Below are positions 1,370-47,883 of a DNA stretch of 64,000 nucleotides, piece by piece; the first letter of the stretch is position 1, and every line of letters begins with the position of its first letter. The translations under genes were made by a program, and so were the position numbers. The stretch is from positions 8,597,234 through 8,661,233 of the forward strand of contig CM055094.1 in NCBI GenBank assembly GCA_029204225.1. Direction: 5' to 3'. The notes under the pieces are model-generated. The model was not told the DNA's origin. It did no database searches and saw only the letters and a program-made list of their open reading frames with translations. Origin of the DNA: Diphasiastrum complanatum (taxonomy: Eukaryota; Streptophyta; Lycopodiopsida; Lycopodiales; Lycopodiaceae).

Positions 1370-1382
1370 TGGTATCAGAGCC
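1370..1382 (+). other. Primer-binding site (initiator tRNA-Met)
   Basis: TGGTATCAGAGCC begins immediately after the 5' LTR. It is complementary to the 3' end of plant initiator tRNA-Met, the usual primer for plant copia reverse transcription. Confidence 0.92.
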
Positions 1383-2180
1383 TAAAGGCTGAAATGAGCT
1401 AAATCCTTGGTTTTCATTCAATTTGATCACAATTTTTGATCTAAATCTTGTGTAGATTGGATCTTAGCATCTAGTATTGATTCTAGAACTCAAAGTGAGT
1501 CAAATACATTGGAGATTGGTGTTGTGTGACTTCATTTGCAGGTGTTTAGGTGTCTAAAACCAGAGGCAAAGTTGAATTCAATTCACATTACCAAGATAGC
1601 AAGTTTTGCTTGCTCCAAGCATTGATTTCTAAGCGAGTTTTGGAGGTGATTTCATAGAGAAGGCTTTCTAGCATTCAAGGAGAGGGAAGATCAGAGTTTT
1701 GGGGACTCTTCAAGGCTGTTCTAAGGTGTAGTAGACACCTCCTAAAGTGATTTAGGTTCAGTCCAACCATTGCTTGACTTATGCACCAAATTAGATCAAT
1801 TTTTCATCAATTTTGATCATTTTTTGCTTGTGATTGGATAGTAGATTGTGTTGCATCTTCATTAAGTTCCATTTAGATCTTTTACAAGTGATTTTGGAAG
1901 TATATTAGGTTGCTGAAAGTCACTCTTGATCAGATCATTTGTAAGCTTTAATGTTCTTTATAGAAAGAGGGGCAATTCTACTAGTATTGTCTACTTCAAT
2001 CAAGCAAGTGCATTGTTTCTAGTATTCTATGATTTGATTTTGTTAGAGATCATTCTTAGATCTTTATAGGAAGTCTATTACTGATCTTTTCAGGTCCCTA
2101 AGAAGTGGGATAAGGTAGACCTTCAATCAAATCAATAGAAGTAACCTTCATTTGTGTCAAGTCCTTGATTAGGAGACTAG
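1383..2180 (+). other. Untranslated leader of copia-1
   Basis: About 800 bp between the primer site and the gag ATG without a long open frame. It is likely the packaging/leader region of the genomic RNA. No other gene is seen in it. Confidence 0.7.
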
Positions 2181-5100: not shown

Positions 5101-6149
5101 TTTCACTTTCTTTTGTTCAAAGTGAATATGATCCCACTCTTTACATTAAGTTTGATGATGTTGGTATTGTACTTTTACTCATTTATGTAGATGACATCAT
5201 CATTAGTGAAAATAGTGTTGATGGTATTGAAAAAATCAAGATAGATCTATCCTTAGAGTTCAAGATGGTAGATCTAGGGTGTCTTCACTTCATCTTAGGC
5301 ATAGAAGTACTTAGAGGGTCTGATTTTATCTTTATAAGTCAAGTAAACTATGCTCAAAGTCTTTTGAAGAAGTTTAAGATGGAAGTATGCAAAAGTGTTG
5401 ACACACCAATGGAGCAAGATGTAAAAGTGCCAAATGAAGATGATGAAAGATCCTTCATGGACATCACTTTGTTTAGGCAACTTATAGGTTCCTTAATGTG
5501 GATCACTATAACTAGACCAGATCTTAGCTTTAGTGTATGTAGGTTGAGCCAATCCATGCAAAAGCCATTGAATATCCATTGGAAAAAGGCTAAGAGGATT
5601 CTAAGATACATCTCGGGTACATTGGATTTTGGGATTCTATATAGAGGAGATGTGATTAACCTTCATGCATTTAGTGATTCAGATTTTGCAGGGGACAAGA
5701 GGGATAGGAAATCAACAAGTGCCTATTCAACTTTCATAGGAGAAGGTGTGGTTTCATGGCTTTCAAAAAAGCAAGAAACTATATCTCTATCTTCAACCGA
5801 GGCCGAGTACAAAGCTTTGACAACCACTACAAAGGAGGTACTTTGGATCAAGAGATTATTGGTGGAACTAAAGATCATGGATTCAGAGGAGGCACCAATC
5901 ATCTACAATGACAATATATCAGCCCAACACCTTGCATCTAACCCAATCTTCCATGCAAGATCTAAGCACATTGAGATATGCCATCAGTTTGTGAGAGAAA
6001 TGGTGCAAGCCAAGGAGATTGCTTTGGAGCATGTTCCAAGCAATGAATGTGTAGCTGATCTACTTACTAAACCACTTCAAAAGACACCTTTTATGAAGTT
6101 CAGATCATCACTTGGAGTGATTAGTAAAGCAATGATTGAACCAAGCTAG
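2181..6149 (+). CDS. Copia gag-pol polyprotein (1322 aa, intact frame)
   Basis: A single open frame encodes the capsid and all enzymes. Gag (UBN2/copia type) fills roughly the first 240 residues, followed by a lysine-rich linker and a CCHC zinc knuckle (CYYCSKMGHYASEC, about 256-269). The aspartic protease core is WIDSGASSH near 312. The integrase has an HHCC domain (HKRLGH to CEAC, about 448-490) and a DDE core with Asp in IHSDVH near 510 and Glu in NGVAERRN near 608. The second acidic residue is missing: the motif reads RSNNGGEF (Asn573) where the family has RSDNGGE. Reverse transcriptase has YVDDIII near 1002. RNase H has SDSDFAGD near 1166 and SSTEAEY near 1205. The ATG at 2181 is the first in the frame and gives a complete Gag N-terminus. 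Length is normal for copia. Apart from Asn573 no defect is seen, so autonomy depends on that site. Confidence 0.96.
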   Translation: MASINAYLLDTNERLNKTNYSIWKVRMESIMIMQDLMEIVNGKEGEPIHPQEKAKYIKRCNVALHCIKMNVANELLREVGDCTSAQDAWETLQKVYESKNQTRMLALKNQIYRSYQKKGESAHTFVLRVKELNKELAFIGDPIKDEELVQLILNGLSFEFDNLVQGYAIMGKLPILEELQGTLMAEESRRSQMQERMDRLSIQGEDDQALFTKGKGKSKGKGSTFKKSTKLEDQEGPPKASSSTTKVKKDKSKVKCYYCSKMGHYASECFKRKQDQSQANMSKEEEEESSHEDSLMMSIFYSTSFKGEDPWWIDSGASSHMTSKREFFSSLLSYDGPIKSIYTANDEACKIEGVGSIPLCLGSSKKINIEGVLYIPTITKNLLSVGQMVDNGFNVDFASNECFIKKKGKIVAKGTRLGKLYKLDAFVDTNVVMLAEKSKISTFTLWHKRLGHVNSGSMEAMIKEEYALGLPRSIGKEDKVCEACALSKAHKKVFPNSITKSSHPLELIHSDVHIASTKFNGGSSMFLTFIDDYSRYCWVFLLSFKSQVFDTFVKFKLFVEKHHNHSIKILRSNNGGEFISNEFKAFCEEEGIKKETSCPYTPQQNGVAERRNRTLCECSKALRLDACLPKSFWGESLVCANYLMNRVSCKAIEGKTPYEMLYGKKPNLNHLKVFGCICYVHVPLETRTKEDPSSTRGIMLGYASSSKGYKVYLPSLNKFVVSRDVIFDEHHMHMLEEGSSAPTIKKKMAEEQDLGFEEELMEEQAPNPPITPRRSSRAKVEPSRLTYQGKGQQVEGISSTSYALSSFEEPSNVEDALNSKEWYKAMLDEYDALIENETWLLVERPQRNVIGCKWVLKLKLNANGSVNKHKARLVAKGYAQERGIDYEETFAPVAKMVTIRLIIALASHFGWILCQMDVSNAFLNGYLEEDIYMEQPQGFIKHGMENKVCHLQRSIYGLKQASRSWNSRLHCYLISLSFVQSEYDPTLYIKFDDVGIVLLLIYVDDIIISENSVDGIEKIKIDLSLEFKMVDLGCLHFILGIEVLRGSDFIFISQVNYAQSLLKKFKMEVCKSVDTPMEQDVKVPNEDDERSFMDITLFRQLIGSLMWITITRPDLSFSVCRLSQSMQKPLNIHWKKAKRILRYISGTLDFGILYRGDVINLHAFSDSDFAGDKRDRKSTSAYSTFIGEGVVSWLSKKQETISLSSTEAEYKALTTTTKEVLWIKRLLVELKIMDSEEAPIIYNDNISAQHLASNPIFHARSKHIEICHQFVREMVQAKEIALEHVPSNECVADLLTKPLQKTPFMKFRSSLGVISKAMIEPS

Positions 6150-6160
6150 ATAGTGAGGAG
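6150..6160 (+). other. Polypurine tract of copia-1
   Basis: A purine-rich stretch ending GTGAGGAG lies between the pol stop codon and the 3' LTR, the usual position of the plus-strand primer. It is short and broken by one T. Confidence 0.7.
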
Positions 6161-6842
6161 TGTTAAAAATTCACAATTCTAGCTTGACTAGTTTTGGTCA
6201 TATGACTTGTAAATAGTTAGATGGTCATGATGTGGCTTGTCACACGTGCCAAATAGCATAGGATTCCATTCATAAGGATGTTCTCAAGTAGACCTAAGTG
6301 TTAGAACCTTTGGAATGAGTCCAAATTATGCTTAGATACAAGGGAGAAAAAATAGGAGCTATTTTTGGTAATTTTTGCATTGTTGAGGGATCTCCAAGAT
6401 TCCAACCCTAACTTGGTAGGGATGAAAGATCCACCAAAATTAGCATTAGGGATAGGTTTAGGGCTACTCATACCTGCCGAAAATCGTGATGGATCATGTA
6501 TATATAGGTGATGATATCTCACCAAAATCAATCAAGCAATTTCATGATTTTTCTCTCATAATGGTGCAATTGCTCTCTATGTTCATAATTGTTTGAGTAC
6601 TTGTGATTACTAATGATTATAGGATTGAATGTAGGTCTGGTGTACAGTACTCAGACTGTGGGAGGCCGTACTTTCACACGTGTGAAGCCTTCTTCAAGGA
6701 TTTGGGCCATTTAGTGAGGTTCAAGCATAGATTTTTGATGGATTTTGATGGTTCAACTTGTGCTAATCTTATGAAATCATAATCTATTGTTTCCCTCATC
6801 ATTTCAAGTGTTTTAGGATCCTTATTTGCTGTAATTTTTACA
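6161..6842 (+). repeat. 3' LTR of copia-1
   Basis: 682 bp, 99.6 percent identical to the 5' LTR, ending at the right GAAAC target duplication (6843-6847). Confidence 0.96.
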
Positions 6843-7086: not shown

Positions 7087-7310
7087 TAAGGTCCTATGCG
7101 ACCTCTGCGGTCCTCCGCGGTTCCTAATGCGGTCCCTCTGTGGTCCTCCCGCCGTGGCGGGAGGTTCTCATTAATTTTTTGTTTAAAAAAAATTCGGAGT
7201 GTTTCATTTTTTGTATAAAAAAACTGAAAACCTCCCACCGCGGTGGGAGGACCGTAGAGGGACCGCATTAGGGACAACAGAGGGACCGTAGAGGGTCGCA
7301 TAGGACCTTA
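7087..7310. repeat. GC-rich foldback (inverted) repeat
   Basis: The left arm 7087-7165 is the reverse complement of the right arm 7230-7310 over about 78 bp with roughly a dozen mismatches, separated by a 64-bp AT-rich loop. Each arm carries its own small palindrome (CCTCCCGCCGTGGCGGGAGG on the left, CCTCCCACCGCGGTGGGAGG on the right) and GACCGCATTAGG-like modules. A further module lies at 7335-7347, directly against the next LTR. It resembles a foldback transposon or MITE. No coding capacity. Confidence 0.8.
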
Positions 7311-10708: not shown

Positions 10709-10773
10709 TGTAAAAAAATCAATTTCATTAAAATGATCTTCAGTATAAATCTAAATCTTATGTCTCTTTAATT

Positions 10774-11241
10774 ATGTTTGAAGGTCCCATTATGTTTGAA
10801 AAGATGTATCGCAAATTCATGCATGTTGATAGAGAAGAGAATGAGCAGGTCTACACAGACACTTACTCAAAGGAGGTGGATCTCAATCCTGGATCCAGAT
10901 TGGACGGATTGTGTAAAAATCGCTTTTTGTCTTATTGTATTTTTGAGCCTATCGACGGTCAACATTTTTGTTATGCATGTAATGAATTGGCAAAGGTTGC
11001 ATTAAATCAAAATAGGATACATCCTCGAATAATTGATGCCACTTTTAGGTTTGTGCATGCCAAGATATGTATGTTTCAGAATGCATCCCATTACATTCTT
11101 GAATCAGATAGACTCAATCACGAACCGGAAGAGAAAAGAAAAAAGAGCAGTCTGCCAGAAATCATGGAGCGTGCACTTGATGTATGGATCTCATTGAGTC
11201 AACCACGCTTTGTTAAAGGAGTGAAGCTAAAAACACAATGA
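10774..11241 (+). CDS. ORF with a ParB-like IDGQH signature, possibly a fragment (155 codons)
   Basis: An open frame of 155 codons. The central FEPIDGQHFCYACNELAK resembles the ParB/sulfiredoxin-like core pattern (Ile-Asp-Gly-x-His followed by an Ala-rich helix). The C-terminal part is charged (EPEEKRKKSS) and then helical. No upstream exon is recognised, since the sequence before it is the broken end of copia-2, so it may be a fragment. It converges with the DUF7869-type gene. It could be a displaced exon of a relative of the ParB-methyltransferase gene at 18745-22268. The ParB assignment rests on one motif only. Confidence 0.4.
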   Translation: MFEGPIMFEKMYRKFMHVDREENEQVYTDTYSKEVDLNPGSRLDGLCKNRFLSYCIFEPIDGQHFCYACNELAKVALNQNRIHPRIIDATFRFVHAKICMFQNASHYILESDRLNHEPEEKRKKSSLPEIMERALDVWISLSQPRFVKGVKLKTQ

Positions 11242-11447
11242 CATTTGTTTTGGAACTTTGACAATCTAAATTTTGTTTTTAAAAAAAGCCAAAAAATGCA
11301 TATTTTAAATAAAGAACTACAAGTTTTTTGTTGCAAACTTCATAAAAGCATCATAATTACAAATGAAATAATAATTTCTAGAGAACAAATGATTTTTGAT
11401 CCCACTGAAATACAAAACAACTTAAATTATATTTGCACATTTTTTTT

Positions 11448-14400
11448 TTAAAGTACATTTTCTAAGGAATTTTCTCTGATGCCTCTCAATTCAGAACTTG
11501 ACATATTATCAACACTCTTGTTTTCAGTTGATGAAGTGGAAGACCCATCTTCTTCATTAGAGTCAACTGGCATATCTTCCTTAGAATCCGCGTCTAATGT
11601 TGACAAAAAACTTTGTAAATCAGCTTTTGTCTGTTGATGACTAGTGGAGGATGATGGTTTTTCCAATAATCCAAGTCGTTCTTTCAATATAGATATAGTG
11701 GACTTTCGTAGATGATTAGTCATTGTCAATTCAAAATTAAATGTCAAAACATCTACATCATGTAGATTCAAATCGTCGACTCTTGGTTGATTTTGTGGCA
11801 ATCTCTTTCTCTTGCCCTTTGGATCTACTTGTAACATTTCGAGTTTCTACCTTCCCAAAAAAGCATTCATTGAAGTGGTGCGCAACCAATGGACACGTAG
11901 TACTTTCGTTTGATTGCTATTTTGAATAAAACCAAGTACTTTGGCAATCCAAAATGGATGTCCTTCATTGGTTTCTGAAGCTAGAAGTGCAACAAGGCTT
12001 CTAATTTGGATTTCATTCAAATCACCACGCCATTTCATTTTTGCAGCTTTTACACTTTGCCTATTCTTCCTTGAGCCCACATAAATTTCACGTTCCTCAC
12101 CTTGCACAAGTTGCAAGAAATCATTATCTCGAGGAAGATTTGAAGGTTCGACAGTTGTAGTTGATGTTCCTAATTTATGAGGCCAATGAAATTCTTCAGT
12201 TGTTGATGTATGTTCGAGATTGAGCAAACTGATTTTTTGTTCCTCAAAAAAGTCCATCCACCAATGCTGATCAAACTCATCAAAAAAATGATAAGCTGCT
12301 TGAATACTTGATTCTAAAAATTTTAATGAGACAAATGGATCAATCTCACAATGTTCTCTTTGCACCTTTTGTTCTTCTAGCAAGAACTTCAAGGGAGACA
12401 ACACAACAAGCTTGATTTGAGTCTATGGAATGTTAAGCAAAAATCGAACTCCTCCAAGAGGTAGCCATGAAATTGAATTTGAAAATAGTTTGCCCCATAA
12501 TAATATAATGCCTGATTCGTTACATTTGATTTTAAACTGATGCTGAAAGCTAATATCATTAATATTAGCTACGCATCGTTCTGTTTCGTTGGACACCTTA
12601 ACATAATCACAAAAATCATGTGTGTATGATTAATGACACGTTTGGCTTGGCACATACGATTCCTCAACAATGCTTTGAAGCACTGGTAAAGAAAATGCTT
12701 TGTTGTGTCTCAACCTCTTAGAAAAACAACTAAACATTTGATCGATTTGATCGTGGGTATGTCCTACCAACAAAAATCCTATTTTTATTTTTTTGAAAAA
12801 AAATTTCTCCACTAGCATGGACAAGTATGCCAAAACAGTTTGGTGATTCATCATATCTTTAAGCCTATAATGAGAACCAACAGGTTCAGACCACCATTTC
12901 ATAGGTATTCATGCTCAAAAAACTCCCAAAATACACTATTTTTTTGACTTTTTGAGACCGCTAATGGTGTCCAATCCTAACAAAACTTCATGAAAACCTT
13001 AGGACAGTTTCATAGCAGTGTTGTGAAGCTGCAAATAAAGTATTTCTGGAAGATTTTCACCAAATTTGCAAATTATCTTATTTACAATGGTGATTATCAA
13101 ATTTGGATCATTTCGAACATTGGGATAATTAAAAAAGGCCTTGGACTCCAAAGTGCCATTAAACACAAGTGCTCTAATGAGATGAACCTGAATAAAATCT
13201 ACCTTGTTCAAATTTTTGGGCACTCTGACAAAATGAGGCAACATTATTTTCTTCTGATCCATGTCACCAATAACAAGGCCTTGATATTTTTATGGACATT
13301 CCAAACATTTCTTTCGATGCTTGGCCAACTTTTGTCTTTCAACTGTTTGTTGATCTCTGTGCAGTTGAAGAGCTTTTAATGATTCACTAATTTAATAGAA
13401 TAAAGATCATACCATAATGGTATTCAAAAAGACTGCAATATAAATGTTTTCAAAACAGAAAGTATTAAAATGAATGACAAATTTGATTAATATTCATCTT
13501 TCTCGTCATGATTGGCCTTTGCAAATTGTTTTGCAGACTTTAACAACTCGCAAGTGGAGCATACTGTCATTTGTGATTTTTTGGGAATCTTTACCAGTCC
13601 AAAATCTCTTTTCCAAATTCTAAGAAAATATGAGTAACTCAAATAGGAAATATTTTTTGTTTTGGCAAACTCTTTGTACATCAAATATTTCTAATTTTGT
13701 AAAATTATCCGGCAAGTGAAAATATAAGGAATTAGACAATTTCTCTCCGTGCACATCTATGAAATGATTTAGCCAAGCAGTTGTATTTAAAACATATGAA
13801 AAAACAGTTCGACCCTGTAACGATCCACGTAATGTTGGGTCTTTCTGAAGTCGTGCATGCATTCATTGAAGCCGTGAGTTTCCGATTGCGTGGACTGTTT
13901 TGTAAGCTTTGCGACAAACCTCCAAAGCATTTAAAAAATAGAAAAATGAGTTTTTGTCCGGCCTCACTGTTGCACACAAATAGTAATTTCTCTCATCCTT
14001 ACTTCATAAAAAGGAGTTTGATCTTAATTCTTCAATTTCTTTGATACTCAACTTTTGCAAACAACAGGATGAGCAACAAATAATATTCCGTACCTTTCGA
14101 ATCTCAGATTTTGTAATCAACTATTTTTGACGATTCGTTAAATCAAGTGAGGATCTCAAGTCTCTCTTGTATTTTTCTTTTTTTTTGGAGTTTGATCTAT
14201 AAATTGAACCTGTGACACTAGTAGGTGCTTGAACTAGTTGAGAAGGTATTGAAATTTCATGATCAGAATTCTGGCTCCAACCTCAGGATGTTCTGGACCC
14301 TTAGAAGGCTCTAATTTTTCAACGAATATAGCCCTTTTAGATTTAACACGACGAACATCACTTTGAGAAGGTCTCCTACGAACATGAGAAAAGCTTGAAC

Positions 14401-14794
14401 GTCGCGGATCAACAGACTTACGTGGATCTGTTGATTTACTAGAATCAGTAACTGAGTGAATTGAAGCTTTTGACTCATCACTCAATGATTCAACTTATTC
14501 AAAAGAACAATGTTCTAATTATGCAGAGCCTGTATCTGAAGAGGAGGACGAGGTCGAAAGATTTGACACAAGTTGAGTTACAGGCGACATTTCTTATAAA
14601 GTACTTGCTTGAGAAATTTCAGAAGATGAACGGGTAAACGATGATGATGCCACATCATTTATGAAAATATGTTCAGATTCAGGAGTGGCTTTATGAAAAA
14701 AGATTTCATTGGGAATATCAGATGAAGATGATGCACTTGTTGCAACGTATTGAGTTACAACTACTGGAATAGAAGAGGTAGAACTACTTGACAT
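11448..14794 (-). pseudogene. Decayed DUF7869-type gene (transposon-associated family)
   Basis: Read on the minus strand. The Ser-rich N-terminus starts with an ATG at 14794 and a basic region follows (14485-14234, SSFSHVRRRPSQSDVRRVKS). Conserved blocks come next: SLQGRTVFSYVLNTTAWLNH near 13820, YFLRIWKRDFG and MTVCSTC near 13620-13560, LPEILYLQLHNTA near 13030, TVLAYLSMLVEK near 12850 and GFLLVGHTHDQIDQMFS near 12780. The VGHTHDQIDQMF signature and the preceding helix are typical of DUF7869 proteins. After this come QAAYHFFDEFDQHWW (about 12290) and HPFWIAKVLGF (about 11955, BAH-like feel), then an acidic Ser-rich tail. Frameshifts and stops break the frame at many places. One gap near 12870-13010 could be an intron, since TTATAG precedes the resumed frame. 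The family is commonly carried by repeats, and a second fragment lies at 32894-32987. Biochemical role unknown. Confidence 0.65.
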
Positions 14795-15363
14795 CGTGAC
14801 CTTAAAAGAAATTTTAACTATGTACTTATGCTAAGCATAGACCCGTTAAAATAGTTAACACAAAACTAAATGTGCTCCACAAACTTAACTGTAACCTATG
14901 ATGGTCATAGAACAAATAAAAAGTTATGCGAACCTCAATAGACATATACAAGAAAAACAACTAAATACAAATGAGCAACAAGCCTAGAAAGCAACTGGCT
15001 AATTAAAATTTCCAGTAGCTACCATGCCTTAGATACTGTTTGGCAGCATCCTTAGGATTAGGGTTGACCCAAAAGTAGGTTTAGGGTTAGGTTCAGGTTT
15101 GGATGATCCCAGCTCAGGCTCGAGGTCGGCGTGAGGTGAGTCGCGACAACACGGTCCCGACGCAAGCCGGAGGTCTAGCATGAGGCGGGAGTCTCGAAAA
15201 AAAAATTAACTAAGGACCGTAGTCCAAGCATAACTCACCTCATCTGCGAATTCAGAAGCACACATGCTGCCAGAGCTCTCGCTACGACAAGTCACGGCTT
15301 TCTATAGGATATTGCATACGTGCTCGCTCACAGATTTCTTGAGGGTAAGATTATTGTCTTGTT
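14795..15363. other. Upstream region of the DUF7869 gene
   Basis: Holds one copy of the palindrome (core ATGCTAAGCAT at 14828-14838, 34 bp upstream of the ATG), a telo-box-like GGTTTAGGGTTAGG at 15079-15092, and a GC-richer stretch around 15110-15310. No ORF of note. It may be the promoter of the minus-strand gene. Confidence 0.5.
14826..14840. promoter_or_regulatory. Isolated palindrome next to the DUF7869 start
   Basis: TTATGCTAAGCATAG matches the core of the palindrome array at 15364-15885 and lies just upstream of the minus-strand ATG at 14794, in the expected 5' leader. Confidence 0.65.
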
Positions 15364-15885
15364 CTATGTTCAGCATGGGTATTAAATTATTGCATTAGTA
15401 AATATTCATGTTTTAGTTAGTATTCATCTTCTTAACAACTTACGTGACCTATGCTCAGCATAGGTGGTTGCACAATTCTCTCCTCTAACCTATGTTGAGC
15501 ATAGGTTGTGTTCGGGTCCTTAGTAACAACCTATGCTCAGCATAGGAAGCCGGTGGGATTTTTTTATTCTTACATGCTTCTATGCTGAGCATAGGTTGCA
15601 TATCTTGTCCTCTTCTAACCTATGCTCAGCATGATAGATTAGCAAGAAGATTGCGAAGACATCCTATGCTGAGCATCGGTGGGACTAGAGCGTGTGAGTG
15701 ATGACCTATGCTGAGCATAGGTTGCATCTATGGTCCTCTTCTAACCTATTCTCAGCATAGGTCGTCACTCGTGTGCTCTAGTCCCAACTATGCTCAACAT
15801 AGGATGTCTTCGCAATCTGCTTGATAACCTATGCTAAGCATAGGTTGGAAGAGGACTAAAGATCTAACCTATGCTCAGCATAGGT
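15364..15885. repeat. Array of 12 regularly spaced palindromes, consensus CCTATGCTNAGCATAGG
   Basis: Copies start near 15364 (degenerate), 15447, 15487, 15530, 15580, 15617, 15663, 15704, 15744, 15788, 15826 and 15867. Start-to-start distances are 37-50 bp, averaging 42 bp, and the first gap (83 bp) is two periods. 42 bp equals four turns of B-DNA, so the sites would face the same side. The best copies extend to 21 bp with AA/TT outer bases. The intervening sequence is not conserved except through the inverted duplication of 15580-15885. It looks like a protein-binding iteron array between two divergent genes. Confidence 0.9.
15580..15885. repeat. Long inverted repeat containing eight of the palindromes
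   Basis: The left arm (15580-15724) and right arm (15742-15885) are reverse complements over about 145 bp with a 17-bp loop. They share GATTGCGAAGACATCCTATG / its complement and GTGGGACTAGAGC / its complement. Each arm holds four palindromes, so the whole can form a large cruciform with smaller hairpins inside. It probably arose by inverted duplication of half the array. Confidence 0.85.
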
Positions 15886-16038
15886 CTCTACTCATATTTT
15901 TCCTGTTCTACAAGGCTTAGTCTGAGAAAAGTGATACTTTTGAGATGTTTTTGTAAGAAAATGTGTTAAATTTTTAGTTTTGATTTTTAAGGATTTTTTC
16001 ACAAAAATTGCTTGTCTTATTAAAGTTTTCAGTATTTT

Positions 16039-16873
16039 TGTGAAAAATGCAAAAATAAGCTTGGTAGAGGCCAAAAATCATGTATATAGGATGATTACAC
16101 ATGTGTGGAGCCTGTTCCCACATGTGAAACTAGTGTACTTGTCATGTACCATAATCATATATGTTGTACATATGATATTTAATTCAAGTTCTAGTGGCTA
16201 AAATGGCCAAAAACTAGTTTTCTAGACATATGACACATGGCATCAATCTATTGATTGCATGAGCCACATCTTTTGGTTAGGTGTCATATCCCATGTGTAG
16301 AGGACATCTCACACGTGTGGAATAAGCTGAAGTAGGCTAATTTTGACTTCTAGAAGATTTCCAAGTAGATCTCCATATAGAAGGAAAATGGACCAAAAGT
16401 GCTCAAAATAGAAGGTTTTGTCCAAGTGTCAGTTTTGCATGATGAATCATCATATGAAAAAGCACCTTTACACATGTGGGATCAGAGGGATGATCAGTAC
16501 CACGAGCTCTCACTTATTGTATATATAGAGCCACAATTGGCCATAATCATAGTGAGACACCAATCTTGGTTTTGGAAGCAATTTTGAGTGATTCTCTCCA
16601 TTTGTCTACATTTGTTTTGATTGTTTTGAGGTTCTATCAATGTGTACTTGATTTTCAGGTTGGAGTCTGTACTCAGATAGTGTTTCACACGTGTGAAACC
16701 ATAAAGTACACTTACCTTCAATTAATGATTGTTCTTGTTAGGATTTTGTGTCTAGAATTGATCTAGATTGATCTTAATCTGAAGTAGATTGATAGATCAA
16801 GTAATCTGACAACCAATCCCTCTCGAGGATCAGATTAGGATCCACTCTTGGTCCTTTTTGTGATTTTTCCACA
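16039..16873 (+). repeat. 5' LTR of copia-3
   Basis: 835 bp from TGTGAAAA to TTCCACA. The right edge is fixed by the adjacent primer site. The left edge is inferred from TG and the ATTTT duplication. It has a TATATATAG box at 16520-16528 and several CACATGTG / CACACGTGTG palindromes, the strongest being TTTCACACGTGTGAAA near 16690. Confidence 0.7.
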
Positions 16874-16886
16874 TGGTATCAGAGCC
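16874..16886 (+). other. Primer-binding site of copia-3
   Basis: TGGTATCAGAGCC directly follows the LTR end, identical to the copia-1 site. Confidence 0.9.
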
Positions 16887-18419
16887 TAGTACAAGAGATT
16901 TTGTTGAAATTGATAGGGTTAATCCAAATCAAAGCCAAAATTAGCAATTTTTTGGAAACTAGTCAAATTTTGTGTAGCGAGTTGGATTTGACAGCTATTC
17001 TCAAAATTTTTGGTCCAGATCTTGTTGTGGGCTGTAGGAATCATTTCCACACATGTGAGGCCGTACAACTCCAGTTTTGACTTAGAAATTTCAAAAATTT
17101 GTAGAATTCGACTCACATACCCAATTTGAATGATTTTTGGTGCAAAATCAAGCATTTTCTATAGAAAATCTAATCCCTTGATTAGTTTTTGGACTAGATC
17201 AGCCAAGAAATTAAATTTGAAGCTTGAATTAGGTGCATTAATTGATTATCTCTGATTTTTTGAGTGCATGTTGAAGTTGAGAGAGATTTTGCTAAAAATC
17301 ATAGATTAAGGAGTGATATGCAAGGTGAGAGGTTGAAATCCATTGTACCATCATCTAGATTTGTTCAAGAGTGATAGGGTCAAGTTTAGAAGCATCAATT
17401 TGCTAGAAAACATCCTTGGATCTGTCCTCCAAGTGAAACCTTTGAGAGTTTCTAGTGCATATAGAGCATCTATGCAAATCTTTTGTAGAATTTGACATAG
17501 ATTGGCTTAAATTGAGAGTTCTAGAAAAGAGATTGAGATCCATGTCACATTGTTCAACCCTACTCAATTTGTTTGAGTGATTGTAAGGTTTGAAAAGAGT
17601 CATTAAGGTGTCTATGGCAAATGTGTAGAGAGAGATCCAATTTTCTAAAGAGTTCCTTCCTTTGTAGAGGGCAAGACCTAGAAGCTCATTATGTGTTGTT
17701 ATAGGTGAAGAATTTGTCTTCTCCTAGGTGATTAAATCTTTCTAAGTGGTATTAGCTCTTTGAACCACAATATCTTAGTGAGAAAAATCACAACTTTTGA
17801 TTTTGAATTTCATTCCAAGTCTTAAAAAGTAGAGTAATTGGTGGAATCCAATAGGAGTAATTGAATTCAATTTGTTGAGCAAAAATTGACAAAGAATGTA
17901 TGAAACTCAAATTAGTTCTATTCAACTTTCTTTGTGAGAGTGTGAGGGTCAACTTGTGATCCCATTGGATGTCTAGAATGAGGAGAAGTCCATATTTGAG
18001 TATTCATGCATGGTTGAGATCTTTGTGAATCTCTAGTTGTCTAATTTTTTAAGCTTTGTGAAAAATTGTTGGTATAGTTTGCTGTCAAATCAGATCAAAC
18101 TCATTCTAAATCTCAAGTGTGAGATTATTTGGTTCAAGAGTGAGTCCAAAAGAAGTGATTAAGTTTGATTTTCATGTATTTGAAAAAAAAACCATCTTTT
18201 GTTCAAGAATCTCAAGTGTTGAGAGAACTAGTCAAGTGAAAAGGAAAATCTAGGTGTCAAATCTTTTTCATATCCATTTCAACTTTCAAAAGAAAGAGTC
18301 ATTGGTATTTGATGAGTCCAATAGAAGATTGGATCTGATTTCTTTAGTGATTCGATTCAAAGATCGTGTGCTTTTGTCTTAGTGATCAAAGCAAAGTTTC
18401 TAAGCGACTAGTCATTACT

Positions 18420-18661
18420 GTCTATCAATGTGTACTTGATTTTCAGGTTGGAGTCTGTACTCAGACAGTGTTTCAGACGTGTGAAACCATAAAGTACACT
18501 TACCTACAATTAATGATTGTTCTTGTTAGGATTTTGTGTCTAGAATTGATCTAGATTGATCTTAATCTGAAGTAGATTGATAGATCAAGTAATCTGACAA
18601 CCAATCCCTCTTGAGGATCAGATTAGGATTCACTCTTGGTCCTTTTTGTACTTCTTCCACA
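18420..18661 (+). repeat. Truncated 3' LTR of copia-3
   Basis: This segment repeats 16632-16873 with only a few differences (for example in the G-box, TTTCAGACGTGTGAAA). The first ~590 bp of the LTR are absent. Confidence 0.9.
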
Positions 18662-18744
18662 ATTTTCATTCAGAATAATGATTTAAATTTTCCTAAAAAA
18701 TCATTTTCTTTGCAAATTTTCAATTGTCTTTGATAATTTTCGAA

Positions 18745-21700
18745 ATGTCGAGGATTTCTTTCAAAATTTCGGGTAAACCTCAAGATATTCCACTAAAAGA
18801 TAAGAAGAAATTCATGTATTACTTCACCAGAGGGGTCAACAACACATAGTTGTCGGAGTTTTTTATTCATTTAGCTGAGAAGCCTGGCAAGGAAGACTCA
18901 TCATATAAAGTTCAAGAAAGATTGCTTGCTGATCAACCAGATGAGGATGAGGAAGAAGGTTTTGTGAACGTACTTGTAAAGGAGACGGATAAGTCTTGTT
19001 CTATTTTTATTTTGAACGAGACTATGATAAAAATTCGACTTTGCTAGAACGAGGCCATCAGAGCTTATTTTGATAAAGCTCTAGTTACTTTGGTGTGTAA
19101 TTATGAAACATATTTTTATTCATATATGTCTACATTTGTTTTATACTTAGCATAGTGGTTACTAAATATAAAATTCTTTGAATTTTTTAGTAAAAGCCTT
19201 AACTCATTATATTTTAAACTTGATTTTTGTTTCTGTCTAGACCATGAAGCAATGCTTAAAAATGGTTCTAGCTGCTATTGCTGAGGGGAAAGATCCGGTC
19301 TATTCATTACGGAGTTCAAAAGGTGTTTCTATTGGACCTCGCAAGCCTGCTTCTGCCACTGCTCAGGTCACAAAACCGGCCTCTAAAAACATTGAGGATG
19401 AAACTGTAGTTGTCCCTCATCCCAAGAAAAAGAGATCTCATCCGAGTCTTCTCTCACTAGACCCAAGTCACGCCCAAAGACCATGGCTACACATCGCCAT
19501 AAGTCCATCCCTTCTGCTGAAAGCAAGAAAGCTGCCACCAAACCATCAATGTCTCTACCTGGTGCATCCATCTGTCCCTTACAAGATAGCTCTGACTTGC
19601 CAAATTAAGAGAAGATATTTCTAAAACAAAAAAAATTAAAGAAACAACTTTGATTTTAGATATAAATCAGTGTGATAGGCCACCTGTAGATACAATAACA
19701 GGAGACATGCCAATAGAAGTAAGAGAACCGAATAAAACACATGTACATGATTTAAAAATAAAATTTAAAGATCGTACACACCACAGGCCATAGTTACTCC
19801 TTTTGTTGTTCTGGTTGATATCAAACAATGCAATTATGTTGCAAATTTTGATTTTTTTTTATTAGATTCATATCATTTTTTTGTTCTTGGGGGCATATGC
19901 AGTTTACAAGCTCGAAAATAGTGATCTCAAGAGTATCCCCATATTCCAACCTTTCGAACTGTGGGTGTTATTGCATTTGCTGGCCTGACAGTGGAAGAAG
20001 CCAAATTATTGGCTTGGGACCATAATATTGATCAGGGCTACGGGATGAAGATGACCGTGATACAAAGAATTCCATTTTTTCACAAAGAATACGTGAGAGC
20101 ATCCAAAGCAGGAGATGTGAATCTCAACTAGAACTGAAAGCACTCTGTGCTCAAAAGACAGGCCTGCCTTTTGATTCGAAATATCCTACGTAGAGCCTTA
20201 CAAAATATGACAATTTTTTTCAGCTAGCTTTTCGCAGTGGCCAGGTAATTTTTTTTGCTACGCTCGTCATGGAATGCTCTGGTCATAATATATGTTGCAA
20301 TCCTTGTAAATTGTTTTTATCAGACTAAAATTTTGAACTCAATTATAATACTCCCTAAATTCCTTATCAAATAATTTTTTTTTTTAATTTTAGGTGTGGG
20401 CCCTTGTTGATAAATTTTTTGATAAATGGAAAACTTTTCAAATAAAAGGCCAACATGCTCAAGGTGCCTCAAAGTCAAAGAAAAAAGTTGTCAACACTCA
20501 AACTCTGAACCCAATCCCTACAGAAATGGAAATATCAAAGTGGAAGAATATGCAAGGGATTAGCTCTTCAGAGCTAATAATAAGTGTTTTTTCTAGAGTT
20601 GCTGATGGTCAACTTTCTCTGGCAGAAATGAGAAAAGAATTTTAAAGGTAATAGTCATAATCTAAATATTTATTTTCATGTTACCTTTTGTAATAAAGTG
20701 ATTTTCATGATTTTGTTGGATTTTTAACAATTGTACTTTTTAAATGCAGGCATAAATTATTTATGAAAGTTCAAGAAGCCCTTGTGACAGGGCTAAATTG
20801 TCAAGATTTTGAAGAGTGCCAAAGGCTTTATCCTCTGAGCAATCAAAATGAAGCTTTGAGTCCATTTTTTATTTTGTTTAGAGACATAGTATTTATTTCA
20901 CCCATGCTTAGCATAGGTGCTTATTAATTGTTTCTTTTTTATATTTTATGTCTCCTATGCTAAGCATAGCTTTTTCTTTATTTAATTATTTCTTTTTGAT
21001 ACTTTAAGTCTTCCATTTTATTTTATATCTTGTGTCTCCCATGCTAAGCATAGTTTTTTCTTTTTCAGCCTCCCGAAGATAAGAAAAACAAAGTCCTTTC
21101 AGAGCAATTCAAGAGGCATATTCTGAAGACAAAAGCAGAAAAAAGGGCCAGGGAGAGATTGGCATGGGGTCAGACCATTGCGGAGGAGGATCCATTAGAG
21201 ACCTACCTTCCCAAAAGTGTCGATGATCAACCATGCTTCTACTCGGTAGAGGAGGACGATTGTAGAGAAATTTCAATTTTTTTTAAAAAAAAGGCCTTAT
21301 ACACTCTACATTGCCGATATACCATATGGATTTCAGATGAAGAAATCATTAAATGATGATTCCCTCTTCAAGTTCACTAAAATCCATAGATTTATGCAGG
21401 GTTTTCTTGAAATCACAACTTCTTCAATTTGGAGAGTTGTTATTTTTCATTCTTCTTGGCAGTCAGCTTCAATACAGAAAGCTCTACTAACTTTCTGTAA
21501 TGCGGGAATAGAAAATGTTGTGTTGTAAGTTTTTAAGTTTCTGAATTATTAATTTGTATTTTAATTCATAATTTTATTTTAAATTTTTTATTTTACAGTT
21601 AAAATTTTAAATTTATTTTACTTGTAATGTTTCATGTCAGGTACAAGCCCAATGTCAGGAACTCGGGAGGAACACGACTTTGCAATGAAATAGAATACAT

Positions 21701-22268
21701 AATCATCGGTTATTATTCTTTGGATGGCAAACGTTCGATGCTTCATTACAACACTTCCGGACTAACAAGTTTTGAAAACTTTTTCCAGTATCCAACCGTG
21801 ACGAAAAAATTAAAAAATCCAATGACGGGTTCCGTGGCTTGTCCCTACCAAAAACCACAACAATTAATTAATCATTTAATTGACATTTTTTCACAACCAA
21901 CTGATTGGATTTTGGATTTATTTAGCGGTAGCGGCACTACGAGTGCATGTGTTGGCTATAATATATTCAGATACTAATCTAGTTAATTTTGTAAAAATGA
22001 GAATGAAATCTTTTTCAGTTTTGTCAGATGAACTATCTGAGGTGGGAAAGAGTTTAGATAGCGAGGATACAGTAATTCCCTTGTCCAAGGAACCTTAGCC
22101 TACTGCTAGCGGAAAAGTAACACAGGAGAATTTGATGATGTCTTGGTTCAAGATTACAAGGTGGTTACGGTAGTCGAGAAAACTGTAGAAGAGGTGTCAC
22201 TTGAAAGTACAGTGGCTACTCAAAAAAAAGAAAAAGATGTAAATGACCTCGATGATTTCTGGGAATAA
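18745..22268 (+). pseudogene. Decayed ParB-like / beta-class N4-N6 DNA methyltransferase fusion gene
   Basis: Several exons are readable. The N-terminal exon starts at the ATG at 18745 (MSRISFKISGKPQDIP), with in-frame stops at 18847 and 19045. A Lys/Pro-rich linker follows at 19244-19620. A ParB-like core appears in about 19650-20110: VLGGICSLQARK, then after a frameshift FRTVGVIAFAGLTVEEAKLL and KMTVIQRIPFFHKEYVR. A helical part lies at 20394-20645, bounded by intron-like sequences, and another near 20752. The catalytic part runs from about 21066. Motif IV reads ADIPYGF (21313-21333; the family has DPPY or similar), followed by an intron (21525-21640, GTAAGT/CAG) and motif I DLFSGSGTT (21915-21941). 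Motif IV before motif I is the beta-class order. A frameshift in an A/T run near 21275-21300 and another near 21965 break the frame, and the acidic C-terminus DLDDFWE ends at 22268. The family methylates exocyclic amino groups of adenine or cytosine; which base cannot be told here. Confidence 0.65.
20900..21053. repeat. Three further palindrome copies within the methyltransferase gene
   Basis: ACCCATGCTTAGCATAGGT (20900), CCTATGCTAAGCATAG (20954) and CCCATGCTAAGCATAG (21038) lie in a non-coding stretch between readable exons. Spacings are 54 and 84 bp, the latter twice the 42-bp period of the main array. A half-site (TTAGCATAG) occurs at 19147. Confidence 0.8.
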
Positions 22269-23100
22269 ATTTTTTTTTCTTTTAAAAAATAATTGCGTTT
22301 ATATTTTTTGATTTATTATGTTTTGAATCTTTTTTATTGATTTAATGTTCTTAAATTTATTTTTTAATTATTTAAAATTAAGAATTTGAAATATTTTAAA
22401 AATTTAACATTGATAATTATTACCAAAAATTAAAATTGTAGCGATTTGTCAAGTTTATAATATTTTAATTTTGGATGTGTTTTTATAATATTTTTGTAAA
22501 AAAAAAATATTTTTGGAAATTTTAAGAAATGAAAAGAATTTTTTCAGAGTGATTTAAATATTTTCACAAATCATTTAATCTCAATTATTGTAAAGTAATT
22601 TCATTTGCATTTATTTAATGTTTAAATATTCAATGAACTTACGTAGGTATAAGTAAAGATTTTAAAATATTTAAAATTTTAAAAAAAATATTGATTAAAA
22701 TTTTTATCTTAATTTAAAAAATATTTTTTTCGATACAAGAATTGTAATTTAAAAAACTTTCAAAATTTCAAAAAAAAAAAAAACTATAACTTTTGTTTTA
22801 AATAAATAAAAAATATTTTTTAGTTATTTTAGTGGTTGTGTATCTAATGATTTTATTTTGAATAGTATTACTATTTAATATAAGCTGAATTTAAGCTATT
22901 TTTGAAAATCTATTGACCAAATTTTTGTAGTTTGAATTATTTTCTTGCAAAATATAACATTTTTTAACATTACAATATATTTATTTGAAGCATTTTAAAT
23001 TTGAATACTTTTTTAATAAAAATTAAATTTTAAAAAAAAATGGGTCTCCAAGTCATCTCTTTTTCTTTGGTCATCATGTTTAAATCCTCAACAACTAAAA
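22269..23100. other. AT-rich non-coding sequence
   Basis: Long A and T runs, no ORF, no recognisable repeat boundary. It may be the 3' flank of the methyltransferase unit. Confidence 0.6.
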
Positions 23101-23103
23101 CAG

Positions 23104-23556
23104 ATGAGAGCATTTTATCTCGGTTTGCATGGTGTACTTGGCAGTAGTAATGTTGGATCTTTGTTAGGACAACACACACTTATATCTTTGTATGAGAAAT
23201 TTGAGGAGTACACAATAATAATATTTCGTTCAAACGAAACATTCAATAATTATATGCAAGTCATGAAATTGTATGTAAATGATCAAATTTGCTACGACGA
23301 ACCTGCATTGGGATCGAGGAAGACAAAAAACAAACCGATATTCATTCGGTTGTTCAGATGTTTGAGGTATATGCCGGACGCCATGTGCGATTGTATCCTA
23401 AAGAAGCTTGTAAATGGAGAATGGTATTTTGGAAGAAAAAATAGAGAAAAACACATTGATGACGGAGTTCTTCTTATGGTTCATGAGATGGCTGCACTAA
23501 GTGTCGTACAGCTTCTTGTAGGTATCACTAAAATCAAAAACACAATTCATGTATAA
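23104..23556 (+). CDS. Orphan ORF of 150 residues, not recognised
   Basis: An open frame starting ATGAGAGCATTT, with mixed hydrophobic and charged composition and a Cys pair in MPDAMCDCILKK. No signal peptide or clear membrane segment. I do not recognise a family. It follows the methyltransferase unit on the same strand and precedes a copia-like LTR end, so it may belong to either mobile sequence. It may also be chance, since the surrounding sequence is AT-rich while this ORF is more balanced in composition. Confidence 0.35.
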   Translation: MRAFYLGLHGVLGSSNVGSLLGQHTLISLYEKFEEYTIIIFRSNETFNNYMQVMKLYVNDQICYDEPALGSRKTKNKPIFIRLFRCLRYMPDAMCDCILKKLVNGEWYFGRKNREKHIDDGVLLMVHEMAALSVVQLLVGITKIKNTIHV

Positions 23557-25115: not shown

Positions 25116-27007
25116 CTTCAGGAGTGATCACTCATTTCTATTTGGTCTTGGTATTTACAACTTTATATGCAATAAGAAGAAGCCTTACCTGTGTTCATCT
25201 ATGAGCGTTGCTAATCTCACTTTTACTTCTGAAGCAGCAAAGTATTCCATTCTGCTTTTGCGTTGCATGTCTTTCGGATATCAATTTGCAGGCTAACCTC
25301 CTGGCCTCCTATTGAAAGACTTGTTTTGCATGTTTACCTTCTTTTGCATCTTTCAATACTTTGTTGCATCTAGTAAGTGGGGAACGGCGAGCCACTTAGA
25401 GGTTGTGAGACAATTTTCTATGGAAACTTGAATCGTAGTTTCACACTCTCTGCCAAAACTTGGATACATTAATTTTCTGATTCAGTACAATAGTTTTTTT
25501 TTTTTTAGAGTATCTTGATTCTTTGTCATTCTACTACGTCTACAATATTTGTTTGAAAACTTGGAGCACTAGATTTCCGATTTTGATTTCATATAATGTC
25601 ACCTGTCTGTTGAGATTTTTGAGTACCGGTCTGTTGAAACTTCGATAATTTAATAAGCATTCAAAGAAAGTATATTTGAAGTATACTTTGAAACTCCAAC
25701 TATCTTTAACATTTTTTAACATCCCTCTCCAATTTCTTTCTTTACATTGCATCCTTGCGTCTAATTGTAACTTTGAGCAACCACGTTGTTGCGTTTCAAT
25801 ACATCATGCAATAACTTCAAATTTTAACAAATCTACATCATATTAAACTTCTCATGTTAAAAAGTTTACAAAATCAATGCTCAATGAAATCACATTTTGA
25901 CAATCAGCTTTGTAAAGTAATAATCAACTTACTTTATGACATGGCAAGGACTTTGTGGTACAGTACCACGTTGTACTTGTTTACTTTAAAACAATCTAGA
26001 ATGATTAGAGCAAGTAGTAAATGGCCTTTTTTCTGTGCCCTTGTTGAGGCACATTCTATTTAGAAGCACCACTAGCCATGTTGACTAAGTAGTTGTTGAT
26101 CACAATGAAGATTCACATCATCCATGACCAATCTCAAATTTTGGGGCTCTTCATGAAATATGGGCCACTTCGTTTCAGTGGGCATTGTTGTCATGTTGTG
26201 CCTACATCCTATCTGTTAGTGTAAAAAGTAAAATTAAAATTACTTGTTCTATAAAGGTTGAAGTCCAATCGATAGACTAGGACTAGCTATACATGGTAGC
26301 TAAATTTCCACTAGTTGCTGAACAAGACGTGTCCCGCCAACAGAAACTTGGGCCATGAACAGTTTGCCACCAAAACAGGTAAATGTATAATTTTACTTTA
26401 TGAAAAATAGAGTGTGCATAAGACTCGAGCTTTGGAAAACTTTGACTTTGGTGCTTACATGTTGATCTCTCCTTTGCAAGTCCATGATGCTATTTTGCCA
26501 GAATCTTAACTTAGTATTAGAGGTATCATTATTGTGCATAGGATAGAGTGACTATGGATATAATTTCAAGCGATTTACATTGTTCAACTATTAAAGAGAG
26601 CTTCAAACCATCAAACGCACTTGTTTTCTCCTTACACAACAATGTACTAAAAAACAACTGTGCACATGATTTGTAGTATGTACCAGGTTTCTTTCAAGAA
26701 ATGAGGTTTGTAAGAATCATCCCTCATTCATTTCATGCTTCAATTTAACTTCGCTTCATGACTGTTACTTGAAGGAGAAAGCAGTGATTCCAAAAATCAC
26801 AGTCTGTATAAAACACTTGCAAAACTATAGTACTGCAGCCCACAATATGAATTTCCTATCCGATCCTCTTTCATCAAAAGGAGGCAGGACACAGCAGGTT
26901 TGTTTCCTGGCCCTGCATCATGTTCTATTGTGAGCTGGAGATAAGAAAACTACAGGCCATGTGAGTCGATCGAATGAGTTAGGAATTTGTTGATTTTCAT
27001 TGGAGTG
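25116..27007. other. Intergenic sequence, no intact gene
   Basis: An exon-like minus-strand stretch near 25200-25270 (EYFAASEVKVRLATLIDEH followed by GTAAGG) might belong to the terpene synthase remnant. The rest shows no coding signal or clear repeat. Confidence 0.4.
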
Positions 27008-30000
27008 TCAGATTGAAATACTGTTGGGTATCCCTGCTCCAGTAAGTCCAGGTTTGGAGCTAGGAAAGAGGAGGGTATAGGGCACTCCTGCTGGTCCTAA
27101 CCTGTTCTTCAGATTTGGATCTGAGTTCCTTTGAGAGATCAGCTGCTCAATTTGAGCAAGTCTATCAGACAATGCACCTATTGCAGTAACTGCAGCTTTA
27201 TTATCAGTCCAGTTGCTTATTCGATATCCAAGATATTCTTCCTCTTTTGCATGCGTAGATAGAAGTTCAATGGTGGTCAATACGATTGTTGCCTGAATTC
27301 TTCCGTTTACAGAAGAAAGCAAAAATTTCTCAGGATCTTGAAGCAGCTCAACGTACTCCTTACTCCCCTCTTCCGGGATAAGTCTTCGTGTTATGGTTGG
27401 ATGATTTGGCATATACCCACCATAAGCGTACTGCCCAAAATTCACAGCAGCATGATGAGCAGATGCTATCCAGATTATTGTTGTCAAGATGCGCACAAGG
27501 TCAGATTTTGTTGATGCTTGGGGCCACCATTGCTCAGCCTTCTTGTCTCCATGACCCACGTTTCTGGCTTCTGACCACCAGAGTTGAAGCTCTTGATCTG
27601 CCAGAACTGTTGCATCATCTTTATAGTAGATATTCACATAATCTTCCACACACTTTTCTGTGGCATCCCAAATATCAAGCCCATCGACGGCAAATGGGTA
27701 GTCAGCAATCAACAATCTTAACCCATATTTCGCAGATGGATCCACCACTGCTATACCTCTGCACACACAACGTAATTAGTGCCCTTTATAATTAGTTTTT
27801 TAGATCTTTTCTCAAAGGAGCAGAAATTTGTCTGTTGTTTCAATACATTTGAAATTTAGAGAGAAAAACTTGCAATCCTTGCAAAGCCTGGAAAATCATG
27901 CAACTATTGTCTACCTTGAGATCAAATCTCCTGGAAGCCCTTGTTGATCAAAACGCCAGGAATCCCTGTAAGCAACCGAACTGATCTCCATAGAATATCC
28001 TCCTGTTGTGAAGGTGTTTTCAATAATACCTCCAGCATTGATAAGGAGTTTGCGAGCACTGGAATTGATGGCCATTGTGTTCTTAAAATGTGGAAGCAGG
28101 AAGATGTTCAGGGGGTGTAAAGCACTCAATTGCCGATGAGCTGCTATGACAAAAGGTTCTATCACCGCATGAGTGGTCAACCTGAAACACAACAGACTTG
28201 CTGGATTAGTTCTCCGTGAACTGCCTTCATTTCTTGCAGATCAATAGAAACCTGTCAAGAACCAGTTCTTCCTAGAATACACATACCAGTGGCTAACTAA
28301 TTGGTGATAGCCGCTATCGTTGGTAGCAACGTGTACTTTGGCAAGCTCCCACAGCCAGTCCTTCGAATCAGAAAGAGGAGGGGTAAAAACCCTCCTAAGG
28401 CTTGAATGATAGAAATCTCTGCAGACAGATTACAATTCACGATGAAGCATAACGGCAGTAGTTAGTGATAGTTAGTTAAAAACGGTTTCTTGTCATGTGA
28501 ATCGGAAACCCTAGATTAGGACTTTCTTGGCAAGTAGACAGATAGATGTATATGTATAGGTTTCATTTTTGGTAATGACACGCAATCTTGTCAATGCTTT
28601 TGCCTTTCTTTAACTTGTGAATTGATCATTGCAAACGGTGTGTGATCTTTCTGTTTTAGCTTTTGCTAGCATACTTGTCAACTAATCTATTGCAGCAGCA
28701 CAATCGATCCATCATTGAAGCCGCTGTTGAAGGGGTGGGTGGAAGCGTCAGCTCAATGGCGATCGGTTTCAGAGTACCATCGTCTGTAAGGTAGAATATG
28801 GTCCTAGATGCGTAAGCTTGAGCTTCTGACTGAGCGTTGATCTTGGTCAAGTAGAGTAGATAGAGATCATTGTAGTCTACTATGTAGAGTTTATCTTGAT
28901 CAAGCGCCTGCAAACGTTTACAAAGAGGGGAATTACGATCATGAAGACCCAAGTATCGTGTGTTGACTCTCAGTACAGACAAAAAAATATGTCAACATTA
29001 AGATCATCATCTTTGATTTATCACATCTCGGCACTATTACCTGTTGAAGGTTAAGACCTTCCAGTTGCGGCTCCAAGTAGCTAGCTGTGATGGCTGATAT
29101 TTGGGGACCGTATGTTGCAGGATCAAGAGCACTTGTTGGAGGAAACACCTGCTTGAATAGGGTGACAAGGAATCAGTAAAATAATTTTGTTGTGAAATAG
29201 ATCGTAAAAAGCTCTTATCACAAGAACGGTGGTTGCAAAGCACCACGCGTTCATTTTGCAACTACTGCATATCTTGCAACAAACATAGAATTCAAACAGC
29301 AGCAACTACCGGATATTCGAAAAACATAAATCGATCAATTCCTTGGGTCTCGCGGTAAAACCTATCAATATGTAGCTTTTCCTACGCTCATTCAATAACA
29401 AATCTGGAAGAGAGAATAAGTGAGAATCAGGATTTCCACACCTTCAAGGATTGAATAGTCAAAGGATTTAGTCCAGCTAACACCTGCCTAGCAAACTCCT
29501 TGTCCGATATCCAAGCCAACTCATCGTCTACAGAAACGCTTTTGTTTGTCAGAATTGAAAACTACGTCAAATTTGTAGCCCAGTTTCCAGGAAAACGTCT
29601 GTCTAAGGCATCATACTTTATCACTATACATGGTATACGGTGACTAGCTGCTGATGATGGTGAGCGACGGCTTACTTGCGATAACCTGTGGAACCGGGTA
29701 TCTCAGCAAGCTCGGATCTCCATCAGTGGTGTCTGTAAGCTCGTTGATAAGCTCAAAAGGAGAGAGGATGAACGGCTGTTCGGCTTGGGGCAGGCTGGTC
29801 GGCAGGAATCCGGTAAGATTAATACCTTTATCATACAGATTCTTCACGTCTTTCAAACTTTCAAAGTGATTGTTGTGCACCTGAAAAAAGCTTTCTAAGG
29901 CTGGAATGAGGATGTGCACAATAGCTTTCAAACCATCGCCTAGGAAGTCTGAATTCTTCACAACGTTGAACCTCTCATCTCTTGGTATGTAAATGTCCTC

Positions 30001-45113: not shown

Positions 45114-47883
<2,770 letters not shown>

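Follow-up and report, generated by a model that had tools for sequence, protein, structure and literature searches.

Two decayed genes and a palindrome array in Diphasiastrum complanatum are parts of a single copy of an abundant DNA transposon that has its own DNA methyltransferase gene

In a 64 kb stretch of the genome of the lycopod Diphasiastrum complanatum (contig CM055094.1 of assembly GCA_029204225.1, positions 8,597,234 to 8,661,233; hereafter the window), two decayed genes diverge from a tract of 12 near-identical palindromes, which raises the question of whether genes and palindromes belong together and what the palindromes are for. One gene carries the DUF7869 domain and the other encodes a DNA amino-methyltransferase; both are interrupted by stop codons and frameshifts, in line with the decay noted in a preliminary description of the locus. 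That description proposed a single mobile genetic unit in which a ParB-like product recognizes the palindromes. We found that the two broken genes and the array are parts of one copy of an abundant DNA transposon, whose copies share their ends and are flanked by target duplications, and that the genes, the palindromes and their layout recur in other copies. The ParB identity gained no support from profile searches.

The genome from which the window comes (1,744,706,496 bases, or 1.74 Gb, in 5176 contigs) was searched for the 17 bp palindrome CCTATGCTNAGCATAGG. Allowing at most one mismatch, there were 5717 matches compared to ~20 expected at equal base frequencies, and the reversed pattern gave none. 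Among the exact matches listed, which lie on contig C1 between 1.6 and 22.8 Mb, we found 11 clusters and one single site. All 11 listed clusters were taken as ten loci of 20 kb each (K01 to K10, two clusters merging in K06), and the single site was excluded.

The transposon copy in the window extends from 11232 to 23080, with the DUF7869 side on the left, the methyltransferase side on the right and a nested long terminal repeat (LTR) element inside. The limits were set by the points where homology among copies stops (K01, K04, K05 and K07 on the left; K01, K02, K07 and K08 on the right) together with a terminal motif in the window, and they widen the 11448–22268 proposed earlier. Once the nested LTR element is subtracted, the decayed window copy measures ~9.2 kb. 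Its terminal inverted repeats (TIRs) are 11 bp long (AACAYGATGAC), and the window copy, K01 and K07 each have ends of this kind left and right. The left repeat (11232–11242, + strand) reads AACACAATGAC in the window, AACACGATGAC in K01, K04 and K07, and a variant in K05. Read inward, the right repeat (23070–23080, − strand) is AACATGATGAC, common to the window, K01, K02 and K08; K07 differs by one base and K06 is truncated there. The 4 bp sequence TAAA flanks the window copy at 11228–11231 and 23081–23084. K01 is an internally deleted copy of 5967 bp flanked by AATA, and two C9 copies with both ends measure 8259 bp (flanked by TTAA) and 9250 bp (flanked by CCTT).

An exact 4 bp target duplication was thus present in all four distinct copies with both ends outside simple repeats, a result with a chance of ~8e-10 under an assumed base composition; K07, inserted in a (TC)n repeat where a target duplication is uninformative, was left out of this count. 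Ten further left ends were picked from the genome-wide left-terminus matches and 1.3 kb was fetched to look for the right end, which was absent from the fetched sequence in eight of them; one of these eight has the flank of the 9250 bp copy and is regarded as a duplicate contig. The left terminus itself (34 bases, at most three mismatches) had 348 + 329 = 677 matches in the genome and its reversed control none. TIRs common to the copies and a target duplication of fixed length place the element among the TIR (class II) transposons, and the claim of one mobile unit is confirmed by these shared ends and duplications.

We then examined which parts of the unit occur together. When pieces of the window genes were used in tblastn searches, remnants of the DUF7869 gene, the methyltransferase gene or both were detected at seven of the ten loci. 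Both were found at four (K01, K05, K06 and K07), the methyltransferase only at K02 and K08, and DUF7869 only at K04. The promoter region of the unit was common to eight of the ten loci, including K03, a promoter relic that had no gene match and whose array region aligns to the family promoter. K07 repeats the geometry of the window, with DUF7869 on one side, a site before its ATG, the array, and a methyltransferase gene with three intron sites. The K06 locus (L031+L032, C1:20298500-20318499) contains two unit copies close together and part of a third.

The association was also approached from the DUF7869 side. In a genome-wide PF25273 search, 150 of 2953 first-look candidates were scored and all exceeded the cut-off, with no match in any of 14 control genomes. 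Nine of these 150 listed matches lie 1.3–1.9 kb inside one of 100 listed left termini (of the 677), where 0.06 were expected, and all nine are oriented toward the left end. In the reverse direction, 2.5 kb upstream was fetched for 12 of the 150 matches, spaced down the ranking; matches already tied to a left end were skipped, which biases the sample against finding the unit. Six of the 12 had parts of it. L068, L069 and L071 contained the array together with both genes, L065 a methyltransferase with the three intron sites, L066 a methyltransferase, and L072 the promoter on its DUF7869 side. The two genes are therefore adjacent elsewhere, with remnants of both at K01, K05, K06, K07, L068, L069 and L071, and the palindromic sites that the preliminary description had noted on both gene sides recur in other copies.

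The decayed DUF7869 gene occupies 11448–14794 on the − strand. Its pieces matched the PF25273 profile at 13002–13289 and 12633–12908 (E 2.1e-22 and 4.8e-08; 80.1 and 33.2 bits against a cut-off of 26), and its product is a putative transposase. A second DUF7869 gene fragment lies at 32869–32986 on the opposite strand, 79% identical to 12249–12369 and with no palindromes nearby. No paper on DUF7869 was found in the open-licence literature, and the family now gains a concrete setting as a gene within a many-copy TIR transposon with 4 bp duplications.

The methyltransferase gene, decayed and with introns, occupies 18745–22267 on the + strand (exon limits by eye). The N6_N4_Mtase profile (PF01555) matched the window letters at 21603–21977 with an E value of 2.2e-12 and 47.9 bits, compared to a cut-off of 26.7. 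In the window, motif IV (ADIPYG) precedes motif I (DLFSGSGTT), which is the order of the beta class; ADIPYG was also seen in K01, K06, L065 and L066. The top match of the catalytic part in the PDB, obtained with an exon-joined query, was CcrM (E 1.9e-5). By analogy with DPPY enzymes, the DIPY tetrapeptide suggests adenine as the target base. Phage and plasmid tblastn searches returned distant methyltransferases, and in Pfam a ParB domain was absent from the seven proteins scanned. The region previously labelled ParB (19769–20128, + strand) is conserved among four other copies. Searches against Pfam, PHROGs, NCBIfam and PDB sequences gave no ParB match for it, so that this identity was not confirmed, and two single-sequence structure models were of no use (predicted local distance difference test scores, pLDDT, of 36 for this region and 43 for the other model). 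The label appears to reflect a by-eye resemblance, and with it falls the argument from ParB–parS.

The palindromes of the window are confined to this element. With up to three mismatches, CCTATGCTNAGCATAGG had 16 matches in 64 kb, all within 14825–21054, compared to 0.26 expected, and none of 100 shuffles reached this number. Twelve of the 16 sites are in the array, one precedes the DUF7869 ATG and three are in an intron of the methyltransferase gene. Seven positions are invariant among the 16: A and T within CCTAT, the T and A that flank the central base, and C, A and T within GCAT. A matrix scan built from the 16 sites added two weaker ones at 19140 and 14895, so that the 18 best matrix matches in the window all fell within the unit; the 18th (9.0 bits) was barely above the 19th (8.0 bits), which lies outside.

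The site before the DUF7869 gene (14825–14841, + strand) is as the preliminary description had it, except that it lies 30 rather than 34 bases upstream of the ATG; it occupies the same place in K07 and K04 and is two bases off in K01. The weak second site (14895–14911, + strand) is 70 bp from the first, a pitch also found in K07, K01 and K06a with at most four mismatches. The array of 12 (15363–15884) has a pitch of mostly 40–42 bp, and its pitch series is common to other copies. Pairwise z-scores sorted its spacers into three types present as direct and inverted duplicates, and our reading of their succession is A B C A C' B' A B C A'. This direct and inverted duplication accounts for an imperfect palindrome of 304 bp at 15580–15883, which contains eight array sites, shows 81.7% identity with its reverse complement and was absent from the preliminary description. 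We did not count helical phasing of the sites as evidence, since duplication makes the pitches dependent on one another and the null was crude.

On the methyltransferase side, the three sites noted earlier were located at 20901, 20954 and 21038 (20901–21054, + strand). Their spacing differs by no more than 1 bp among the window, K07 and K06, whereas in K01 the three sites are degraded; the weak site at 19140–19156 (+ strand) falls in the probable first intron. Between array and gene lies a later LTR-element insertion (16039–18661, + strand) that is not part of the transposon. It has a 5′ LTR of 835 bp, a partial 3′ LTR of 241 bp (96.7% identical over the shared part) and a 5 bp target duplication, ATTTT, at 16034–16038 and 18662–18666. 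Once it is removed, 237 bp separate the end of the array from the methyltransferase ATG at 18745, in agreement with the earlier estimate of about 240 bp.

The layout of the sites has been kept among copies. K07 and K05 have one and the same pitch series, 84-42-41-54-40-41-42-41-40-54-41. K04 has nearly this series, and K02, the two K06 copies, K08, K03 and K01 have kept parts of it; the window copy deviates from it in places. When ten promoters were aligned, the site columns showed 91.7% pairwise identity. When the mask was shifted circularly in 1322 ways, identity was 82.9% (sd 2.6), and only the shift by one column reached the observed value. These columns had been chosen by a motif match in at least three copies, a selection that favours conservation, and the test was therefore repeated in such a way that one copy defined the sites and identity was calculated across the nine others. 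The site columns then showed 91.6–93.8% identity compared to 82–84% for shifts, and with each of five defining copies no shift reached the observed value (0/841 to 0/1261).

The methyltransferase gene has itself been under past selection. In comparisons of at least 50 codons, the ratio of nonsynonymous to synonymous substitution rates (Ka/Ks) of its pieces was 0.18–0.70 in 49 of 51 piece-by-pair comparisons, with the caveats that frameshifts make the catalytic values rough and that K06 mixes two copies at one locus.

What, then, might the palindromes do? The element pairs a putative transposase gene with a divergent gene for a bacterial-type beta-class DNA amino-methyltransferase, and the conserved 17 bp palindromes lie between the genes, before the DUF7869 ATG and in methyltransferase introns. 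An element-encoded protein could bind these sites, which would then act as a tag of 'self' through which the expression of the element's two genes is controlled. The outcome of binding might be relief from host silencing or, alternatively, the methyltransferase might write its own mark at the shared promoter. We rate this reading at about even. Transposase sites would be expected at both ends of a transposon; in the window and K07 no palindrome is near either end (3.6 kb from the left and 2.0 kb from the right end in the window, 3.2 and 1.7 kb in K07). This argues against a role in bringing the ends together, gives no support to the recognition for transposition suggested earlier, and speaks for self-recognition in the control of expression. 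The same conclusion is favoured by three precedents compared below: the motif pattern of VANC, the fungal TET/JBP transposons and the rotifer N4CMT.

Several results weigh against this proposal. A DNA-binding domain was recognized in neither gene. The same palindrome forms arrays of ~28 bp pitch at K09 and K10, where the sites are mostly 26–32 bp apart with another spacer and neither gene occurs in 20 kb, so that either a host factor or a protein of another element may bind it; counting the relic K03, arrays without either gene were found at three of the ten loci. The six remaining DUF7869 matches of the reverse test had no array and no methyltransferase within the 2.5 kb examined. The array is therefore not required by DUF7869, which is a wider family with the unit as one branch. 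The three-site intron is conserved over its whole length, so the sites are not distinct there. Two K05–K07 comparisons of the methyltransferase gave Ka/Ks values of 0.83 and 1.24, and the DUF7869 pieces gave 0.30–1.22 in 20 comparisons, weakly below 1.

Given the K09 and K10 arrays, the array-less DUF7869 genes and the lack of a recognized DNA-binding domain, the binder might also be a host factor. The palindromes would then be ordinary sites for a host transcription factor, with the array and intron sites as a bidirectional promoter and enhancers and no self-recognition involved. This fits their position before or between genes or in probable introns, as well as the presence of the motif in gene-less arrays, but 5717 sites genome-wide would be expected to titrate such a factor, and the listed C1 sites come almost entirely as clusters; we consider the explanation possible, though on the whole unlikely. 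The arrays of ~28 bp pitch with a different spacer and no gene trace in 20 kb lie at C1:5996531-5997105 (L037+L038) and C1:12721057-12721162 (L039+L040), and represent another element or a satellite with the same motif.

If the array were instead an internal enhancer of transposition, bound by the DUF7869 protein and looped to the ends, the preservation of its layout among copies would be explained; the distance of every site from both ends in the window and K07 makes this improbable. The array might also be a by-product without function, palindromic DNA grown by template switching into a hairpin whose RNA could feed small-RNA silencing. The direct and inverted duplicates among the spacers point that way, as does the predicted fold of the array RNA (z −22 against shuffles). 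Yet the site columns are better conserved than the remaining promoter in the ten-copy alignment, sites within the window copy are more alike than their spacers in two of three comparisons (86% versus 73%, p 0.04; 85% versus 68%, p 0.03; 91% versus 83%, p 0.31), and the sites upstream of DUF7869 and in the intron are not part of the duplicated stretch and are found again in other copies. We judge a mere by-product to be more improbable still. A partition system of the ParB–parS kind, in which a ParB-like protein binds the palindromes and segregates an extrachromosomal form, has a motif-level resemblance by eye in its favour; the profile searches gave no ParB match, the copies are chromosomal insertions with target duplications, and we regard such a segregation role as highly improbable.

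Self-recognition by an element-encoded protein can be extended into a more specific scenario, which we offer tentatively and consider rather unlikely as a whole. A lineage of plant DNA transposons, characterized by a DUF7869 transposase, would have captured a bacterial adenine methyltransferase, evolved a palindromic address array, and come to mark its own promoters and introns with a DNA mark foreign to the host. Such a self-encoded epigenetic identity could shield the transposon from silencing by host cytosine methylation.

The element was compared to known transposon families. Its duplications (TAAA, AATA, TTAA and CCTT) are not restricted to TTAA, unlike those of the TTAA-target families piggyBac and Kolobok. 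VANDAL and other Mutator-like elements have a MULE transposase domain and a target duplication of ~9 bp; here it is 4 bp, and DUF7869 was the sole family over the cut-off in the DUF7869-gene pieces scanned. The 4 bp length also does not fit Zisupton and KDZ, a target duplication of 8 bp being given for Zisupton (PMC12730594). By its sequence features, the element is a TIR transposon that carries a putative epigenetic accessory gene, and its combination of 4 bp duplication, DUF7869, palindrome array and amino-methyltransferase fits no family tested. A viral origin was unsupported: searches that reach close relatives only found no methyltransferase relative and no confirmed DUF7869 relative in viral contigs (the stitched DUF7869 query including 13 letters that do not come from the window), and these contigs contained no DUF7869 motif and only five single palindromes.

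Early inverted-repeat candidates beside stop codons were no better than shuffles. The open reading frames at 10732–11241 (169 aa, with a DGQH motif) and 23020–23556 (178 aa), neither with a family match, were rejected as genes of the unit because each runs across one end of the element and neither is seen again at the ten array loci. Elsewhere in the window are a pair of lipoxygenase genes or gene remnants, inverted relative to one another (27006–31160 and 41322–45115, about 78–83% identical), a fold-back of ~230 bp at 7087–7310 with 78% identity to its own reverse complement, and a copia element at 688–6842. The 99.6% identity of the copia LTRs and its open reading frame of 1322 aa suggest that this insertion is recent.

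In the open-licence literature we found nothing comparable on eukaryotic or plant transposons that carry ParB or methyltransferase genes, and no description of a transposon that combines its own methyltransferase with a conserved palindrome array. Parts of the combination have precedents. In Arabidopsis, VANC is an anti-silencing protein of VANDAL transposons whose motif repeats are found ahead of VANA and within VANB and VANC introns and expand by repeat formation (PMC5735166). VANDAL21 thus resembles the present element in that a DNA transposon's own short motif is clustered in its non-coding regions, but the VANC21 motif is 9 bp in one orientation, in contrast to the 17 bp palindrome, different genes and 4 bp duplication found here (PMC5735166). 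The fungal TET/JBP elements are likewise DNA transposons with their own DNA-modification enzyme, one proposed to remove silencing marks; that enzyme is a dioxygenase instead of an amino-methyltransferase, the transposases are others, and the accessible part of the report does not mention a palindrome array (PMC12730594). DIRS1-like retrotransposons also have a methyltransferase domain, of unknown function there, accompanied by a reverse transcriptase and a tyrosine recombinase rather than the ends of a TIR element (PMC3266345). N4CMT of bdelloid rotifers is, as here, a eukaryotic N6_N4_MTase of bacterial type (PF01555, permuted beta type), but it is a host gene involved in transposon silencing, whereas the present enzyme gene is carried by the transposon itself (PMC8885841). 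Compared to the CcrM-type adenine methyltransferases, which gave the best PDB match of the catalytic part and likewise have motif IV before motif I, the present gene is eukaryotic, contains introns and encodes a long N-terminal part. A DNA amino-methyltransferase gene joins the epigenetic enzymes carried by eukaryotic transposons, accompanied by a candidate address site that keeps its layout from copy to copy.

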